Assembly: GCF_000174775.1 (NCBI RefSeq)
Contig: NZ_ACLR01000170.1
Span: 28,555-92,554 of the forward strand
Origin: Porphyromonas uenonis 60-3
GTDB taxonomy: Bacteria > Bacteroidota > Bacteroidia > Bacteroidales > Porphyromonadaceae
Reading direction: 5' to 3'
DNA: 64,000 bases
A program made the translations under genes and the position numbers. Positions 8,790 through 31,585 of the stretch are shown here, piece after piece. A model generated the notes under the pieces. That model was not told the origin of the DNA. It did not search any database and saw only the letters and a program-made list of their open reading frames with translations. The stretch's first letter is position 1; each line of letters begins with the position of its first letter.

Positions 8790-8969
8790 ATCAAGGAAAT
8801 CGGACAATTCCTCGGTGGAGATTGTTGATTATCCTGCGAGGAAACGAAAAATTCTTCGGAACTTCGAAATCTTTCTTCCGAAGTTTCATTTCATTCTTCC
8901 GAACTTTTATTTCCCGGTTCCGTGGGGAATTTTCATTTGCTCCTTGGAAATCCACGATTTCCTCGGTAG
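8790..8969 (+). mobile_element. MITE-like 180-bp repeat, copy A
   Basis: A non-coding element with related ends (AAGGAAATCG at the left, GATTTCCTCGGTAG at the right) and a core of 21-bp units beginning TTCCGAA (about 8876-8912). Three further copies lie at about 24910-25092, 42319-42500 (inverted) and 56092-56212 (inverted, shortened). Inside the terminal arms each copy has a second inverted pair of the type CCACGG / CCGTGG. The rest of 8649-9178 shows no gene. Confidence 0.75.
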
Positions 8970-24485: not shown

Positions 24486-24522
24486 AGTAGTATATGTATA
24501 AGCTAAAGTTGCAATTACTCCT

Positions 24523-24530
24523 CAAAAGTA
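24523..24530 (-). promoter_or_regulatory. -7 box for the barrel-flavodoxin-ftsE... run
   Basis: The minus strand reads TACTTTTG, a match to TAnnTTTG, giving a leader of about 32 nt before 24485. It is the only clear promoter seen for the ten genes down to tadA, although internal promoters cannot be excluded. Confidence 0.5.
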
Positions 24531-24534
24531 CAAC

Positions 24535-24790
24535 AATCTTGCGAGATGAGTAACGATGAGACGTGTACCCCGCCGTGGAAACGCTCGGTCGATACGTGTA
24601 ACCCGCTGTGGGGACGCACGGGAGTGTCTAGCGGGAGGGCGTCCGTTGTAGTACAGCAAGACGTGTGACGGTTGTAGGAACGCTCGGTCGAGCGTCCGTT
24701 GTGTCAAAGCAAGACGTGTAATCCGCCGTATGGACGCACGGGAGTGTCTACAAAGGGTTACACGTCCCGTGTGACCCCCACAACGGGTTA
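24535..24790. repeat. Composite GC-rich repeat block
   Basis: Short units recur inside the block. GCGTCCGTTGT followed by AGCAAGACGTGT occurs twice, GACGCACGGGAGTGTCTA twice, and ACGCTCGGTCGA twice. The last part, CTACAAAGGGTTACACGTC (24748-24766), is found again at 56046-56064 in the arm of the large inverted repeat. No ORF with family support lies here. Confidence 0.7.
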
Positions 24791-24794
24791 CTTG

Positions 24795-24868
24795 TCCGAT
24801 CCCTCCGACCTCTAACCTCTAATCTCTCATCTCTAACCTCTAATTTCTCATCGTCTAACCTCTAACTC
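24795..24868. repeat. Degenerate heptamer array (CTCTAAY)
   Basis: A run of 7-bp units, CTCTAAC, CTCTAAT, CTCTCAT, on the plus strand. Its first 21 bp (24795-24815) are the exact reverse complement of 49481-49501 in another heptamer block, including a unique GGTCGGAGGGATCGGA, so the blocks share ancestry. Confidence 0.75.
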
Positions 24869-24909: not shown

Positions 24910-25092
24910 ACCTCCGAGGAAATCGAAAATCTCCAGGGAGCAAACGAAAATCCTCCACGGAGGCATAAAAAAAATCTTCCGAACTTTGATTTGCTTCTTC
25001 CGAAGTTTCATTTCATTCTTCCGAACTTTTATTTCGGCCCTCCGTGGAGAAAATTCGTTTTCTATCGAGCTATCCGCAATTTCCTCCGTAGG
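24910..25092 (+). mobile_element. MITE-like 180-bp repeat, copy B
   Basis: The left end CCGAGGAAATCGAAAATCTC and the right end (TTTCCTCCGTAGG) are imperfect inverted repeats. Inner arms contain CTCCACGGAGG and CCTCCGTGGAG. The core has three 21-bp units starting TTCCGAA, the last two in common with copy A. It lies just upstream of the defence cassette promoter. Confidence 0.78.
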
Positions 25093-25140
25093 CGACGAAA
25101 ACTAGATCAGTTCGGACACGCTACTCTCTTCTTTTAATGT

Positions 25141-25148
25141 TATCTTTG
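25141..25148 (+). promoter_or_regulatory. -7 box of the defence cassette
   Basis: TATCTTTG matches TAnnTTTG and lies 19 bp before the ATG at 25167. This leader decides against an upstream start at 25137, which would lie before the promoter. Confidence 0.65.
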
Positions 25149-25166
25149 CAGAGTAGTACGACAGCT

Positions 25167-26225
25167 ATGGCACAAAATAAGATTGAGGTAGACATATTAG
25201 AGGACAAGCTCCCCACGTCTCTCCTAGAGATACTCCTGCAGGATCACACTACGGAGAAGAATATCTTTTGGGCTTGCAATGACTATGAGGAGCTCGGGGC
25301 GGGTTACGCCTTTTCCGACCCCATCACCCTAGGCTCTATCCGGGGGGAGCATGGGCGGGTCATCATGCCCCGTGTTATGAAGCATCGTGACCTGAAGCGA
25401 CGTCGTACCAAGGAAAAGGCGGAGATATTTACCCCAGCGTGGGTCTGCAACCTACAGTGTAACTGTGGCGACGATGGGTACCTCGCTGAGGGGAGCAGCT
25501 TCAACTACAATCTAGATGCCGAGGGTCGTGAGTGGGAGGCTACGACTGAGCCTATTCGCTTTGCCGAGGGGGTGACGTGGCAGGACTATATCCTTAGGAC
25601 CTGTATGGAGATCACCTGTGGCGAGGCCCCTTACTTGGCCAGTCGCTACGATGCAGTCACGGGTGAGACGATACCTATATACAAGCGCATCGGGCTCCTC
25701 GACCGCAAGCTACGTGTCGTCGGCGAAAACGTCTCAGACCGTGCCGACTGGCTCGTCTGGGTGACTAAGTCCTTCCAGAGTGTCTACGGCTACGAGTGGC
25801 AGGGGGACAATATCCTCCTAGCTCGTGAGAATATGCTCTACACCTTCATCGAGTACTATCGTGACCGCTGGGGCGAGGAGCCTACGCTGGAGGAGCAGAC
25901 GGAGATCGCAGAGGTCATAGCGTGGAATATTTTCCAGATGGATGGTCTCAAGTTTGTCATCCCTAACTCCTGCCATGAAGAAGTGCAGCACTCAGGTCTA
26001 TTCGAGGCAGATGTCAAGCGTGTCCCTTGTCCTGGCTGTAAGAAGAATGACCCGCTCCTGCACAACGGCATCTATGCCAAGATCAGAGATTGGCAGCAGG
26101 ATGGAGTGCTTCACCTCGTCGATGTCTATCGCCAAGGCAAGGCACGCAATGAGCGTGAAGCAATGGAAGCTAAGAAGGCGGAGGCGGAGCAACGTCAATC
26201 AAAGCAACGTAAGAAGAAGCAATGA
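25167..26225 (+). CDS. Conserved companion protein of the R-M-like cassette
   Basis: A 352-residue protein of a Bacteroidota family that I recall being named 'restriction endonuclease subunit M'; its activity is not established. Visible features are FTPAWVCN (88-95), reminiscent of the FTP motif X of N6-adenine methyltransferases, CGEAPYLASRYD (151-162), GLLDRKLRVV (176-185), WQGDN followed by an aliphatic helix, and a CPGC pair near the C-terminus before a highly charged Lys/Arg/Gln/Glu tail. There is no NPPY and no clear SAM-binding glycine loop, so it may be a degenerate methylase or a DNA-binding partner. The last codons overlap the next gene (ATGA), which indicates coupled translation. 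The start at 25167 is set by the promoter. Confidence 0.75.
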   Translation: MAQNKIEVDILEDKLPTSLLEILLQDHTTEKNIFWACNDYEELGAGYAFSDPITLGSIRGEHGRVIMPRVMKHRDLKRRRTKEKAEIFTPAWVCNLQCNCGDDGYLAEGSSFNYNLDAEGREWEATTEPIRFAEGVTWQDYILRTCMEITCGEAPYLASRYDAVTGETIPIYKRIGLLDRKLRVVGENVSDRADWLVWVTKSFQSVYGYEWQGDNILLARENMLYTFIEYYRDRWGEEPTLEEQTEIAEVIAWNIFQMDGLKFVIPNSCHEEVQHSGLFEADVKRVPCPGCKKNDPLLHNGIYAKIRDWQQDGVLHLVDVYRQGKARNEREAMEAKKAEAEQRQSKQRKKKQ

Positions 26226-29200
26226 GTGAAGAACTGATTGATACGTTAATTATTGGGAGGGTAGAACCTTATATTTACGCTTTCTCGACGGAGAGTGTAC
26301 CCAACTATCTCAAGGTTGGGGATACTTACCGACCAGTCTTACAACGGCTGGATGAGTGGAGACGCTACTTCCCCAATTTGCGTTCTCGCTATAGTGCCGT
26401 AGCTAAGGTCGATGAGGAGACCTACTTCCGAGACTTTGCGGTGCATCGCTATCTAGAGCATCAGTTACAGCGTAGTCGGTTGCGTCCGAGCGACCTGTCT
26501 GAGGAACTTTACTACTCGCGGGAGTTCTTTCGAGAAGCTACGGAGGAAGACCTGCGCCAAGCGATGGCAGACATTGAGCAATCTTATGAGCGTGGAGAGG
26601 GTCGGTATGATTTCTTCAAGTTTGAGGAGAGTCGTATTCCTGTGAAACACACCTATAAGCGTACAGAGAGCTTTGAACCACGACCAAACCAGCGGGAGAC
26701 AATCGAGCGATTTAAGAAGGCCATATCACAAGGGCGTAGCAACCTGCTGATGTATGCGGTGATGCGCTTTGGTAAGAGCTTTACCTCGCTCTGCTGTGCG
26801 GTTGAGATGCAAGCGAAACTTGTCCTTGTGGTCTCTGCAAAGGCAGATGTCCGCGAGGAGTGGAAATGCTCAGTCGAGAGCCACGTGAAGTTTGCCGAGT
26901 ACAGCTTCCTAGACAAAGACAAGCTCATGGAGAGTGAGACAGTTCTAGAGGATACGTTAGCTACAGGGCGTGCCGTAGTCTTCTTGACGCTACAAGACTT
27001 GATGGGTAGTGAGATCAAGCAGCGTCATCATGCACTCTTCGACCGTGAGATAGATCTCCTACTCATTGATGAGACTCACTATGGAGCTAGAGCCGCAGAG
27101 TATGGTCGTGTTCTGAAGCTCAACAAGAGAGAGCTCAAACAGGAGACTTACGAGCTGGACAGTGCTGAGCAGTACGATGATTGTACAGAGCTAAAGCAAC
27201 TGCGTAGCCGTGTCCGTATTCACCTATCGGGGACTCCTTATCGCATCTTGATGGGGAGTGAGTTTGAGGCGGAAGATATTATCGCCTTCTACCAGTTCTC
27301 AGACATTGTCGAGGAGCAGGCAGAGTGGGACCGTGAGCATATACTCTCGGATGAGGTGAAAGAGTGGGACAATCCCTACTACGGCTTCCCCCAGATGGTG
27401 CGCTTTGCCTTCCTACCTAATGAAAGCTCGCTACGTGTTATGGAGACATTGCGGGCAGACGGCTATGAGATGGGTCTGTCAGAGCTCTTTCGTCCTCGCT
27501 CTATCTTGCGAGACAATAAGGAGGGACGGCACCGCCTATTCGTCCACGAGGATGAGATCTTGGAGTTTTTACAGGCGATTGATGGCGTGCAGAAGGATGC
27601 GCATCTATTGCCTTTCCTTGATTTGGAGCAGATCAAGCGAGGGCAGATGTGTAGGCATCTCGTTTTCGTCTTACCCTACAGAGCTTCGTGCGATGCCATG
27701 GAGCATCTATTGACGGAGTATAAAGAACTCTTCCGCAATCTATCTGACTACACCATAGTCAATATAGCTGGTGTCGATGATCCCAAGCGATATTGTAGCA
27801 CCGAAGATGTCAAAGCTCAGATAGCTGACTGCGAGAGAAAGGGCGAGAAGAGTATCACCCTAACGGTCAATCGTATGCTAACGGGTAGCACCATCCCTGA
27901 GTGGGATACGATGCTCTATCTCAAGGATTGTGCCTCGCCACAAGAGTACGACCAGGCTATCTTCCGACTTCAGAATCAGTACATACGGACGCTGACGACA
28001 GAGGATGGCTCGGAGCAGGTCAAGTACAATATGAAGCCTCAGACGCTTTTGGTAGACTTTGACCCGCAGCGGATGTTTCGCCTACAGGAGCAACGAGCGC
28101 AGATCTACAATGTCAATACGGATCAAGCTGGCAATAAGAAGCTTCAGGAGCGCATTGAGACGGAGCTACGCCACTCGCCGATAGCTACAATCGGAGCCGA
28201 AGGCTTACAGCGTGTAGAGGCTAGTGACATAATGGATTCCGTGCGCTCCTACAGTGCTGAGCGCAGTGTGATGGATGAGGCTACCGAGATACCGATAGAC
28301 TATACGCTACTGGCTGACGAGCGGATGCGCTCTGTCATCTCGCAGCTGAATCCGATAGATGCCTCTAAGGGAATAGAGATACAGGCGGTCACGGGCGAGG
28401 AGAGCGAACTAGAGCTAGAGACACATGACACGCCTAAGGGAGGCGGTGCTACCTCTACGCAGGTAGCTCCCTCCGCAGAGACTGATGAAGGTCGCTTGCT
28501 GGGCAAGCAGTTGGCGACTTACTATGCGCAGATACTCTTTTACGCTTTTCTGACAGAGACTCCAGTCTCCTCGCTAGAGGATCTGATAGCTTCGATCAGT
28601 CAGGGTGCAGACAATAAGCGCATAGCACGCAATGTGGGGTTACAAGCCTCTATCCTACAGATCATACAGACCGTGAGCAATCCTTTTGTCTTGCGAGCTC
28701 TGGACTATAAGATTGCGAATATCAACACGCTGATGAGTGACACGTCGCTTATCCCGAGTGAGCGTGTAGCTGTGGCGATGAAGAAGTTCGGACGACTCTC
28801 CTCATCGGAGATAGTCACGCCACAGGCTGTCGCACTAGAGATGATCGATGCGCTAGACGAAGGTGTCATCACGTCAGAGACACGTATATTAGACATAGCG
28901 TCCAAGCAGGGCGAGTTTACCAGAGCTTTGGTCAGCAGGTTTGGCATGGCAGTCGGACGCAATGTCTATGCTCTCCCCACCTCCACGGTGAGTTACGAGT
29001 TTACCCTCAAGGTCTATCGTCTCCTCGGATTAGACACCGACCATGTCATTTCAGACTTTACGACCTATGATATCCTTGATAAAGAAAAGAAAGACAGAAT
29101 CATGCAGCAACTCATAGATATGAACTTCGAGATAGTAATTGGAAATCCTCCATACCAAGAGTCAGATGGAGGAGCGGGAGCAAGCTCTAAACCAATTTAT

Positions 29201-30151
29201 CAAGAGTTTGTGTATGCTTCCAATGAAGTCGCAAAGTCGCATTCAGTAATGATTATGCCCGCTCGTTGGTATACAGGAGGAAAAGGTCTAGACCAATTTC
29301 GAGAGGATATGCTTACAGATAAGCATATAAAACTCCTCTACGACTATCAACGTCCTGACGAAGTCTTCCCAAACACAAACAATCGTGGTGGGGTTTGCTT
29401 TGTTGTTAGGGATCGTCGCTTCGATAACTCCAAGGGGCAAACGACAATTGTATCTAATTATGGAGGAGGAAAAACGTCTATGCAGCATCGTAGCTTAAAA
29501 ACGAAAGGGCTGAAGATTTTCATCCGCCATCAAGAGTCTATAACTATTCTAACTAAGGTGACGAAGCATCCTGATTTTAGTTCTATAGCCAATTACATTT
29601 CATCTCGAAAGCCGTTTGGTATAGAAGGAAATGTTGTTGAGGATAACAGCCTATTTAAGAGACAACGGACAAAGAGCAACCCTATTTTGTGCTATGGTCG
29701 TTCTTCAGCGAGAGGGTATGTGCCTTTGTCGTTGGTAAAGACTAATGTAGATTGGATAGAAAGGTACAAAGTCTATATACCATATGCAAACAATATTGGC
29801 ACTGAGCTTAGTGATGACAACTTGAATGCTTTTATAGGGGCACCAAACACTGTTTGTTCAGAGACTTTCCTAGCGGTAGGCGTTGACTTAAACTTATTAG
29901 AAAAAGAGGCAACCAACATAGTCTTGTACCTTAAGACTAAGATGGTTCGATTTTTACATAGTTTGAGTAAGTCAAGCCAACATGGTACGAGTAAGACTTA
30001 TCGGTTCGTGCCACTGCAAGACTTCACCGCAGATTCTGACATCGACTGGAGTCAGTCGGTCACCGATATAGACCGTCAGCTCTACAAGAAGTATGCCCTC
30101 ACCCCCGACGAAATAGCCTTCATCGAGGAGAAGGTTCGCCCTATGGTGTAA
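26222..30151 (+). CDS. GIY-YIG nuclease - SF2 helicase - Eco57I-type methyltransferase polypeptide
   Basis: A 1309-residue single-chain restriction-modification-like enzyme. Residues 14-80 look like a T5orf172/GIY-YIG nuclease (YIYAF at 17-21, YLKVGDT at 29-35, R37, acidic and His residues in 65-80). Residues about 150-680 are a superfamily 2 helicase with Walker A MRFGKSFT (181-188), DETH (283-286) and motif III HLSGTPYR. After a low-complexity linker (about 690-750), residues about 840-1060 are an N6-adenine methyltransferase: a motif I variant LDIASKQGEF (about 888-897) and NPPY in IGNPPYQES (about 972). The last 250 residues are a likely target-recognition domain, in clearly AT-richer DNA. 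The order resembles Type ISP enzymes, but these carry an Mrr-type nuclease. Confidence 0.85.
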   Translation: MSEELIDTLIIGRVEPYIYAFSTESVPNYLKVGDTYRPVLQRLDEWRRYFPNLRSRYSAVAKVDEETYFRDFAVHRYLEHQLQRSRLRPSDLSEELYYSREFFREATEEDLRQAMADIEQSYERGEGRYDFFKFEESRIPVKHTYKRTESFEPRPNQRETIERFKKAISQGRSNLLMYAVMRFGKSFTSLCCAVEMQAKLVLVVSAKADVREEWKCSVESHVKFAEYSFLDKDKLMESETVLEDTLATGRAVVFLTLQDLMGSEIKQRHHALFDREIDLLLIDETHYGARAAEYGRVLKLNKRELKQETYELDSAEQYDDCTELKQLRSRVRIHLSGTPYRILMGSEFEAEDIIAFYQFSDIVEEQAEWDREHILSDEVKEWDNPYYGFPQMVRFAFLPNESSLRVMETLRADGYEMGLSELFRPRSILRDNKEGRHRLFVHEDEILEFLQAIDGVQKDAHLLPFLDLEQIKRGQMCRHLVFVLPYRASCDAMEHLLTEYKELFRNLSDYTIVNIAGVDDPKRYCSTEDVKAQIADCERKGEKSITLTVNRMLTGSTIPEWDTMLYLKDCASPQEYDQAIFRLQNQYIRTLTTEDGSEQVKYNMKPQTLLVDFDPQRMFRLQEQRAQIYNVNTDQAGNKKLQERIETELRHSPIATIGAEGLQRVEASDIMDSVRSYSAERSVMDEATEIPIDYTLLADERMRSVISQLNPIDASKGIEIQAVTGEESELELETHDTPKGGGATSTQVAPSAETDEGRLLGKQLATYYAQILFYAFLTETPVSSLEDLIASISQGADNKRIARNVGLQASILQIIQTVSNPFVLRALDYKIANINTLMSDTSLIPSERVAVAMKKFGRLSSSEIVTPQAVALEMIDALDEGVITSETRILDIASKQGEFTRALVSRFGMAVGRNVYALPTSTVSYEFTLKVYRLLGLDTDHVISDFTTYDILDKEKKDRIMQQLIDMNFEIVIGNPPYQESDGGAGASSKPIYQEFVYASNEVAKSHSVMIMPARWYTGGKGLDQFREDMLTDKHIKLLYDYQRPDEVFPNTNNRGGVCFVVRDRRFDNSKGQTTIVSNYGGGKTSMQHRSLKTKGLKIFIRHQESITILTKVTKHPDFSSIANYISSRKPFGIEGNVVEDNSLFKRQRTKSNPILCYGRSSARGYVPLSLVKTNVDWIERYKVYIPYANNIGTELSDDNLNAFIGAPNTVCSETFLAVGVDLNLLEKEATNIVLYLKTKMVRFLHSLSKSSQHGTSKTYRFVPLQDFTADSDIDWSQSVTDIDRQLYKKYALTPDEIAFIEEKVRPMV

Positions 30152-30175
30152 TATGAACTATAAAAACTAGGTAAT

Positions 30176-31585
30176 ATGTACCAAATCCGAACAACAGATA
30201 TAGAAATCCCAGTTGGAGACCCTTTCCGTAACTGTAAACTGGGACGTCAACAATATGCAGAGGTCTTGAAGACTTTGACGATAGGGAACAATAACGGTTG
30301 CGTGATCTCTCTAAATGGAGCTTGGGGAACAGGTAAGACTACTTTCATCCAGATGTTTAAGCAAATGATGAACAATGAAGGGTATCCTACGCTCTACTTC
30401 AATGCTTGGGAAACTGATTATATTTCAGACCCAATCATTGGACTAATAGGAGAACTGAAAAAGCTGGAAGGGAAAGGAACTAAATCTAGAGTTAAAGATA
30501 TGGCTCAGAAAATAGGCCCTATTCTTGTCAAGAGAGCAATCCCCGAGTTTCTCAAACACGTTCTAAAAAAACATGCTGGAGAAGAATGTGCAGACATTCT
30601 TAAGGAAGTAGCAAAAGGAGGTGCAGAACTATTTGAAGCGGAGATCGAGAACTACGAAAACCAAAAGAAAAGCATTGAGGGGTTCAAAAAGGTATTAGGA
30701 GAGTACGTATCTACATTAGGTGAAAAGGCACCTCTCATCTTTATTGTAGATGAACTAGATCGATGTAATCCTCACTATGCTGTAATGGTCTTGGAGCGAA
30801 TCAAGCACCTGTTCTCCATTCCTCAGATAGTATTTGTGCTAGCGATAGACAAGGAGCAACTTTGTAACTCTATCAAGGGGTATTATGGAAGTGATAGAAT
30901 TGATGCGGCGGAGTATCTACGTCGATTTATAGATATAGAGTACACCTTGCCCAGTCCTGACTATAGAAGCTTTATCAAAGTGGAATTAGAAAGATTGGAT
31001 TTCCAAGCTCTCTTCAAAGGAAGTCAGAAGATGAATACCTGGGAAGAGACTATTACTAGCATACTAGTATCCTTCGCGGAGAAGTCACATTTAAGTTTAC
31101 GTCAGGTACAGAAAATGATGAACCAGGTTAGGTTAACATATTCTACGATAGATGTAAACAACGAGAACTATACCAATCGTGTTATCGCTCTTTTTCTACT
31201 AGTGTACATTAGATCTTTTCATAGTGAGGTATATGACCTAATTACGAAGAAAGAGGCTACGTTGCAAGAGGTTGCTAGTCAAATCGAAAGATGCTTGCCG
31301 TTGTCGCTATTCAATAAAGAAGCAGAGAGTAATCGTGCTCCAAAATCTTTGGCGCATGCTTTTACAGTTATCCTGCTCATGTACTCAAACGATGAAAATG
31401 GATACCCCAAATATTCATTGTTTGAAAAGAACGAAGAGGGCTTAAAGATCAAGTTCTCCGTTGAAAGATTTCATGAAGACGATATAGTCGAGGCTTTGAA
31501 GGTTTACGCTGGCATGCCAATTTATATAACCCTAGATTCTTTGATAAGTAAGGTAGAGCTGTACGACAATGTTCGAGTGAATTAA
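30176..31585 (+). CDS. KAP-family P-loop NTPase
   Basis: A 469-residue protein with Walker A NGAWGTGKTT (47-56), the KAP-typical FNAWETDY just after it, and Walker B FIVDELDRCNP (about 188-198). LAIDKEQLCNSIKGYYG and AAEYLRRFIDIEYTLP further downstream are also KAP marks. No membrane segments are obvious, so it is a soluble type. KAP NTPases are recurrent members of anti-phage loci. It begins 24 bp after the methyltransferase gene, in AT-rich DNA like the 3' end of that gene, and is probably part of the same transcript. Its partner activity here is unknown. Confidence 0.85.
   Translation: MYQIRTTDIEIPVGDPFRNCKLGRQQYAEVLKTLTIGNNNGCVISLNGAWGTGKTTFIQMFKQMMNNEGYPTLYFNAWETDYISDPIIGLIGELKKLEGKGTKSRVKDMAQKIGPILVKRAIPEFLKHVLKKHAGEECADILKEVAKGGAELFEAEIENYENQKKSIEGFKKVLGEYVSTLGEKAPLIFIVDELDRCNPHYAVMVLERIKHLFSIPQIVFVLAIDKEQLCNSIKGYYGSDRIDAAEYLRRFIDIEYTLPSPDYRSFIKVELERLDFQALFKGSQKMNTWEETITSILVSFAEKSHLSLRQVQKMMNQVRLTYSTIDVNNENYTNRVIALFLLVYIRSFHSEVYDLITKKEATLQEVASQIERCLPLSLFNKEAESNRAPKSLAHAFTVILLMYSNDENGYPKYSLFEKNEEGLKIKFSVERFHEDDIVEALKVYAGMPIYITLDSLISKVELYDNVRVN

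Follow-up and report, generated by a model that had tools for sequence, protein, structure and literature searches.

The window analysed here, a stretch of 64,000 nucleotides from the genome of Porphyromonas uenonis 60-3, holds a candidate restriction-modification operon of three genes, encoding a companion protein that resembles a methyltransferase deprived of its catalytic motif, a large multidomain protein and a KAP P-loop NTPase (Table 1). The companion and large-protein genes overlap by 4 bp and a gap of 24 bp leads from the large gene to the KAP gene, so that the gene positions and spacings given in a preliminary description of this DNA are all borne out by the sequence.

Table 1. Features of the operon and of its upstream region (window coordinates).
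Feature	Position	Strand	Basis or remark
Dispersed intergenic repeat	24594..24750	.	301-bp query 24500-24800: 68 matches in own genome
Second dispersed, partly palindromic repeat, resembling a miniature inverted-repeat transposable element (MITE)	24918..25091	.	copies near 8847, 42319 and 56106
Candidate -7 box TAnnTTTG	25141..25148	+	5' of companion start; sequence read
Companion gene	25167..26225	+	ATG 25167 to stop 26225, 352 residues
Companion protein, predicted methyltransferase fold without motif IV (putative pseudo-methyltransferase)	25167..26225	+	PADLOC, model, motif count
Large-protein gene	26222..30151	+	1309 residues
Large protein: GIY-YIG nuclease, superfamily 2 (SF2) motor, coupler, N6-methyladenine (m6A) methyltransferase, recognition domain	26222..30151	+	Pfam, PADLOC, Foldseek
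GIY-YIG (T5orf172) domain, residues 17-116	26270..26569	+	Pfam and invariant residues
SF2 helicase-like motor, residues ~150-640 (RFGKS, DETH, SGTP)	26669..28141	+	Pfam, alignment
Methyltransferase motifs X to III, residues ~846-965 (fixed part)	28757..29116	+	alignment
Apparent exchangeable cassette, motif IV and target recognition domain (boundaries approximate)	29060..30010	+	identity drop, GC content, distance correlation
Motif IV NPPY	29144-29155	+	inside cassette
KAP P-loop NTPase gene	30176..31585	+	469 residues; Pfam KAP_NTPase, PADLOC PDC-S20

Regarding the companion, Pfam returned no match and PADLOC assigned the protein to PDLC03390 MTase_II (4e-135). The first 30 VIA-align rows for its structure model (predicted local distance difference test score, pLDDT, 93.5) are all adenine DNA methyltransferases, and the half of the protein that binds S-adenosylmethionine (SAM), i.e., gamma-class motifs X, I, II and III, is present according to the motif table, hhalign and VIA-align. 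The catalytic motif [DNS]PP[YFW] was searched for anywhere in the protein and occurs in none of 230 companion sequences, namely 74 class A open reading frames (ORFs) above 200 bits, 16 from class B, 20 from viral contigs and 120 listed among 7728 protein-search hits (the classes are described below). These sets overlap partly, one phage contig for instance being counted twice, and several companions are truncated where their contigs end; the class C short companions stand outside the 230 and were read by eye. A position for motif III could be assigned in 73, 15, 13 and 120 members of the four sets, respectively; the motif IV slot, which varies by lineage, holds P.[ST]C (203 of the 221 sequences thus placed), P[YFM] (13) or other residues (5). 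The only match of the companion in a PDB sequence search is meaningless (E 0.15). Because direct hhalign comparison with the methyltransferase of the split class (class C) yielded nothing (prob 1.0), kinship to catalytic methyltransferases goes via the short form of the companion found in that class, which matches the companion at E 7.8e-16 and whose profile reaches HsdM (E 0.0028). The companion is therefore predicted, from these comparisons, to be a methyltransferase-like protein without catalytic motif, an identity that the preliminary description had not recognized.

The large protein joins, as had been proposed, a nuclease-like domain, an SF2 helicase and an N6-adenine methyltransferase (NPPY) in one chain. 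In the Pfam scan, residues 17-116 match T5orf172 (E 8.5e-6, better than the Pfam cut-off), residues 151-303 ResIII and residues 958-1049 Eco57I (1e-18), and PADLOC recognizes REase_MTase_IIG (PDLC03626, 1264 bits). T5orf172 belongs to the GIY-YIG clan; residues Y19, K31, G33, R42, H75 and E101 of the domain are invariant in 79 of 79 legible rows, and its secondary structure (strands 17-22 and 29-35, helix 39-46, strand 54-60, helix 71-81) displays the beta-beta-alpha-beta-alpha core that, together with conserved Tyr, Gly, Arg and Glu, marks GIY-YIG nucleases. When the profile of this domain was compared with the PDB by sequence, no GIY-YIG match appeared, and no Mrr family is listed for the large protein at E <= 1 in the Pfam scan. 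The earlier suggestion that a GIY-YIG-type nuclease replaces the Mrr-type one is supported by the Pfam score and the invariant catalytic residues, and the suggested Type ISP-like architecture by Foldseek, in which the best solved match of the large-protein model is LlaBIII (E 4.6e-20, 1141 columns; LlaGI, 2e-10), with template modeling (TM) scores of 0.30/0.25 that imply no single rigid superposition. A PDB sequence search with the large protein gave no match, and its own genome (2.24 Mb, 250 contigs) contains a single match to it. A nuclease and a gamma-class methyltransferase are thus found in a single chain, as in Type IIG enzymes, and so are the SF2 motor, coupler, methyltransferase and recognition domain of Type ISP.

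Since the catalytic residues of the large protein are conserved in nearly all relatives and the m6A motif is found in none of the 230 companions, the pattern is beyond chance. It is very unlikely that the operon encodes no more than an ordinary, known Type IIG enzyme plus accessory methyltransferase, leaving nothing more to explain: PADLOC models do match both proteins and names like 'restriction endonuclease subunit M' are in use at NCBI, but with the catalytic motif missing from 230 of 230 companions, 'accessory methyltransferase' is only a label.

The companion had also been expected to be a conserved neighbour of the large protein, and an adjacency survey of homologues agrees. In one scan of genome contigs, the best 80 of 195 large-protein relatives were taken as class A; relatives span Bacteroidota, Bacillota, Campylobacterota, a Treponema, a metagenome-assembled genome (MAG) of Woesearchaeota and others. 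Linkage was counted at 79 of the 80 loci, the contig of L011 ending inside the large gene, and a companion lies upstream of the large gene in 77 of these 79, the exceptions being L055 and L081. The distance is at most 60 bp in 73 of the 77; a YhcG, Fic or RhuM gene intervenes in three of the four others, and at L076 a 370-bp gap is followed by a shortened ORF. Extra operon genes, including YhcG/DUF1016 nuclease, Fic and RhuM, were seen at L024, L036, L075 and L034, the last of which carries a DUF559 gene and then two tandem companions.

Linkage extends to more distant relatives. In the divergent class B (16 loci, mostly ~1320 residues), the companion is present in 16/16; the class A profile aligns there only from about residue 145, and a GIY-YIG-like IY.F...LK[IV]G stands at the start of 14 of the 16 proteins. 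Class C is split: the recognition domain belongs to a separate methyltransferase gene (~500-560 residues), 13 of 14 loci have a short companion (at L127 another gene fills the flank) and 10 of 14 a separate motor gene, with T5orf172 in both motor proteins scanned. Loci L138-L142 and L153 form a separate three-gene class, in which a short half-methyltransferase is accompanied by a methyltransferase that has a recognition domain and by a GIY-YIG motor protein. At L136 and L137, which make up class D, the companion is placed 3' of a protein of 1407 or 1417 residues. Starting from the companion, copies were found in 4 of 295 class genomes, all adjoining a large-type gene or within 2 kb of one, and on plasmids a companion and an Eco57I-type gene occur together in 3/3 records examined (17 found), one of these being split by an insertion sequence.

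Viral contigs, whose loci were examined for companion, large gene and KAP, offer a more divided picture. The large gene follows directly at 8 of 20 companion loci and related pieces stand beside the companion at 2; the remaining 10 have no large gene in the flank, which weighs against an obligatory pair. Three of these ten contigs carry a distant large relative elsewhere. The pair can be unlinked in huge phages, since three viral contigs of 233-412 kb (L198/L218, L199/L221 and L195/L222) hold a very large relative and a companion homologue far apart. At L213, L215, L216, L219, L220, L223 and L224, no large gene was seen in the flank of the companion; viral companions of this kind might act as enzymes on their own or serve as decoys in counter-defence.

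It is improbable, in our view, that the companion acts as a SAM sensor or as a scaffold subunit, licensing the nuclease-motor instead of taking part in methylation. Its SAM-motif residues are invariant, and C269, C288, C291 and H299, invariant in a 67-row companion alignment, resemble a metal site, but this cysteine set is absent from several Bacillota and phage copies and, where the nuclease-motor is a separate gene, the companion stays with the methyltransferase gene.

The two exceptions of class A are instructive, as the companion slot is occupied there by a C5 METHYLTRANSFERASE: L055 and L081 both carry a PF00145 enzyme at this place. Over 13 conserved columns of the large protein from motif IV on (residues 966-1060), L081 has 6 changes and L055 has 4, the next row having 3, which makes them the most altered of 80 rows; VPPF replaces NPPY in L081 and L055 retains NPPY. 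In the nuclease columns, both proteins remain intact (0 and 1 changes of 43), and of 203 motor columns 6 and 9 are changed, which places L055 fourth among all rows for this domain. In a midpoint-rooted tree of 76 rows, both fall among companion-bearing rows, and they may share one single origin, the replacement thus involving two loci and perhaps one event. The C5 enzyme also has matches in 2 plasmid records. The simplest reading of these sequences is that the companion and the m6A domain would serve one function, modification, and that C5 methylation taking over would release both.

That a genuine C5 methyltransferase can occupy the companion slot is also what could be expected if the companion were itself catalytic, as a second DNA methyltransferase whose active site is unusual and which would modify, in an asymmetric target, the opposite strand or a different base. 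This alternative, which we consider unlikely, would fit the preserved SAM-site motifs, the MTase_II label given by PADLOC, the phage companions without a large gene nearby and the statement in the literature that Type IIG enzymes may have one or two accompanying methyltransferases (PMC4081073). However, none of 230 companions carries [DNS]PP[YFW], and the slot varies by lineage, unlike a conserved catalytic site. Moreover, the m6A domain of the large protein is most altered beside the C5 enzyme, which would not be expected of a simple second-strand enzyme.

Within the large protein, motif IV and the recognition domain behave as one exchangeable cassette, judging from sequence comparisons. DNA identity with L011/G316 is 92-100% up to ~29.0 kb, drops to 41-57% over 29.1-30.0 kb and recovers past 30000 to at least 92%, a level kept across the greater part of the KAP gene before similarity stops near 31.6 kb, and the guanine-plus-cytosine (GC) content is ~0.51 before the cassette, 0.39-0.42 within and ~0.39 in KAP. 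In a distance test on 69 loci with 500 permutations, companion distances correlate with those of the motor (r 0.84), the GIY-YIG domain (0.79), motifs X-III (0.76), motif IV (0.29) and the recognition domain (0.27), all above all 500 permutations; once motor distance is controlled for, a partial r of 0.23 is left for motifs X-III and of 0.01 for the recognition domain. Companion distances thus appear to reflect co-inheritance with the core and not specific co-evolution. A role of the companion as specificity subunit was considered and rejected, the recognition cassette residing in the large protein and companion distances following it weakly (r 0.27). In class B, inverted spare recognition cassettes adjoin a tyrosine recombinase at L145:5935-11205 and L146:5283-10951, and L206:8217-14356 has two spare cassettes; they are probably devices of phase-variable specificity.

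Regarding the third gene, its product matches Pfam KAP_NTPase (PF07693, E 4e-42) and PADLOC PDC-S20 (E 2e-143), and the preliminary description saw in it a partner or backup of the restriction enzyme. We find it hardly probable that the three genes form one functional system. The 24-bp gap, the identical gene order at G316/L011 including KAP, the PDC-S20 match and the fact that KAP lies beside the large gene in both carriers (E <= 1e-15) among 38 family genomes speak for it, but KAP adjoins the large gene in only 1 of 80 relatives, is absent at G299, where companion and large gene are present, and occurs in a single one of 295 class genomes (E <= 1e-20), i.e., its own. Furthermore, YhcG, Fic and RhuM occupy such operons elsewhere. 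On linkage, KAP was therefore rejected as a system component. The only other copy found (L011:2993-4417) has a P-loop reading GTDKT vs GTGKT in the window; this copy may be inactive, or the difference may be a MAG error.

The KAP gene is likely, on these comparisons, a facultative passenger in a swapping hot spot. Between the same flanks, the close relative G295 (L176:4165-9551) carries a Type III Mod/Res pair, in front of which a leftover of the operon promoter region and first companion codons (window 25129-25205) remains, and in G319 the two longest ORFs at this site resemble nitroreductase and transglutaminase families rather than restriction genes. The leftover in G295 retains the candidate -7 box, for which the consensus is TAnnTTTG. 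Because a second in-frame ATG at 25137 lies 5' of this box, the companion is likelier to be 352 residues long. Further upstream, the announced MITE stood in part: region 24500-24800 is a repeat with many genome matches, and it is the sequence near 24918-25091 that matches its own reverse and has further copies within the window.

Taken together, we give an even chance to a restriction-modification operon in which a dead-methylase companion pairs with the m6A half of the large protein. The large protein would bind target DNA and, with the companion pairing with its methyltransferase half so that this half works, would methylate adenine on host DNA; on unmodified DNA, the motor would engage and the GIY-YIG nuclease cut after long-range communication, in a Type ISP-like manner. 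Heterodimer formation, m6A dependence on the companion, translocation, collision-type cutting and defence are what we infer. More tentatively, and at somewhat less than even chances, the operon would represent a large bacterial and phage family of two-chain adenine methyltransferases, each made of a catalytic NPPY chain and, fixed beside it, a dead partner that bears a SAM site, a prokaryotic counterpart of METTL3-METTL14 coupled to a GIY-YIG nuclease-motor and with catalytic motif and recognition domain in a swappable cassette. Phages that carry only the dead partner might employ it for interference. If this is true, a widespread family labelled 'Type IIG plus methyltransferase' relies on a pseudoenzyme, the absence of a catalytic motif in the supposed second methyltransferase is explained, methylome assignments from single cloned genes can fail, and the C5-slot loci are a natural experiment in which modification was re-wired under an unchanged nuclease.

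Among known systems, METTL3-METTL14 is an analogy: it combines a catalytic adenine methyltransferase with a catalytically dead partner of methyltransferase fold, METTL14, a pairing that would be paralleled here; however, it is of the eukaryotic MT-A70 family and there is no sign of common origin. A Type III restriction-modification system was rejected, the N6_N4_Mtase (Mod) and RE_endonuc (Res) families not being listed for the window proteins, whereas both are found in the G295 system. As to PDC-S20 and the KAP P-loop NTPases, a candidate family, they are linked to this restriction system in two Porphyromonas genomes alone. PADLOC already labels all three parts of the operon (Type IIG, Type II methyltransferase, PDC-S20), and the novelty lies in the variant and its pseudo-methyltransferase partner. 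No publication on a family of GIY-YIG-motor-methyltransferase proteins with companion was found in searches of the open-access PMC literature, and in the portion of text bearing on a Prevotella intermedia 'Type IIG' pair (PMC5608340) no tie to the large-protein family was found, even though Rikenella microfusus DSM 15922, given there as a relative, is locus L041.

GIY-YIG-type catalytic residues are shared with the restriction enzymes Eco29kI, Cfr42I and Hpy188I, which are stand-alone homodimers or tetramers, with no in-chain motor or methyltransferase mentioned in the excerpts of a paper according to which few GIY-YIG restriction enzymes have been described (PMC4081073). A 2006 survey of GIY-YIG proteins mentions a putative Type I HsdR with a GIY-YIG domain and GIY-YIG-methyltransferase fusions, and its excerpts show no GIY-YIG-motor-methyltransferase fusion (PMC1564403). 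Like the Type IIG enzymes MmeI and DrdV, the large protein (PADLOC PDLC03626) is expected to provide restriction and gamma-class methylation from one chain; it differs by its motor and GIY-YIG nuclease and by a companion without motif IV. Type ISP and Type III enzymes rely on one-strand methylation and orientation rules (PMC5737866). Type ISP membership was not assigned to the operon, no Mrr-family (PD-(D/E)XK) nuclease being listed for its large protein; the likeness to LlaGI and LlaBIII lies in nuclease, SF2 motor, coupler, methyltransferase and recognition domain following in the same order in one chain, and the differences are the GIY-YIG-type nuclease, the separate companion and the existence of split versions. 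A GIY-YIG nuclease carried by a Type ISP-like motor would be a means to test whether collision-activated cleavage requires an Mrr-type nuclease.
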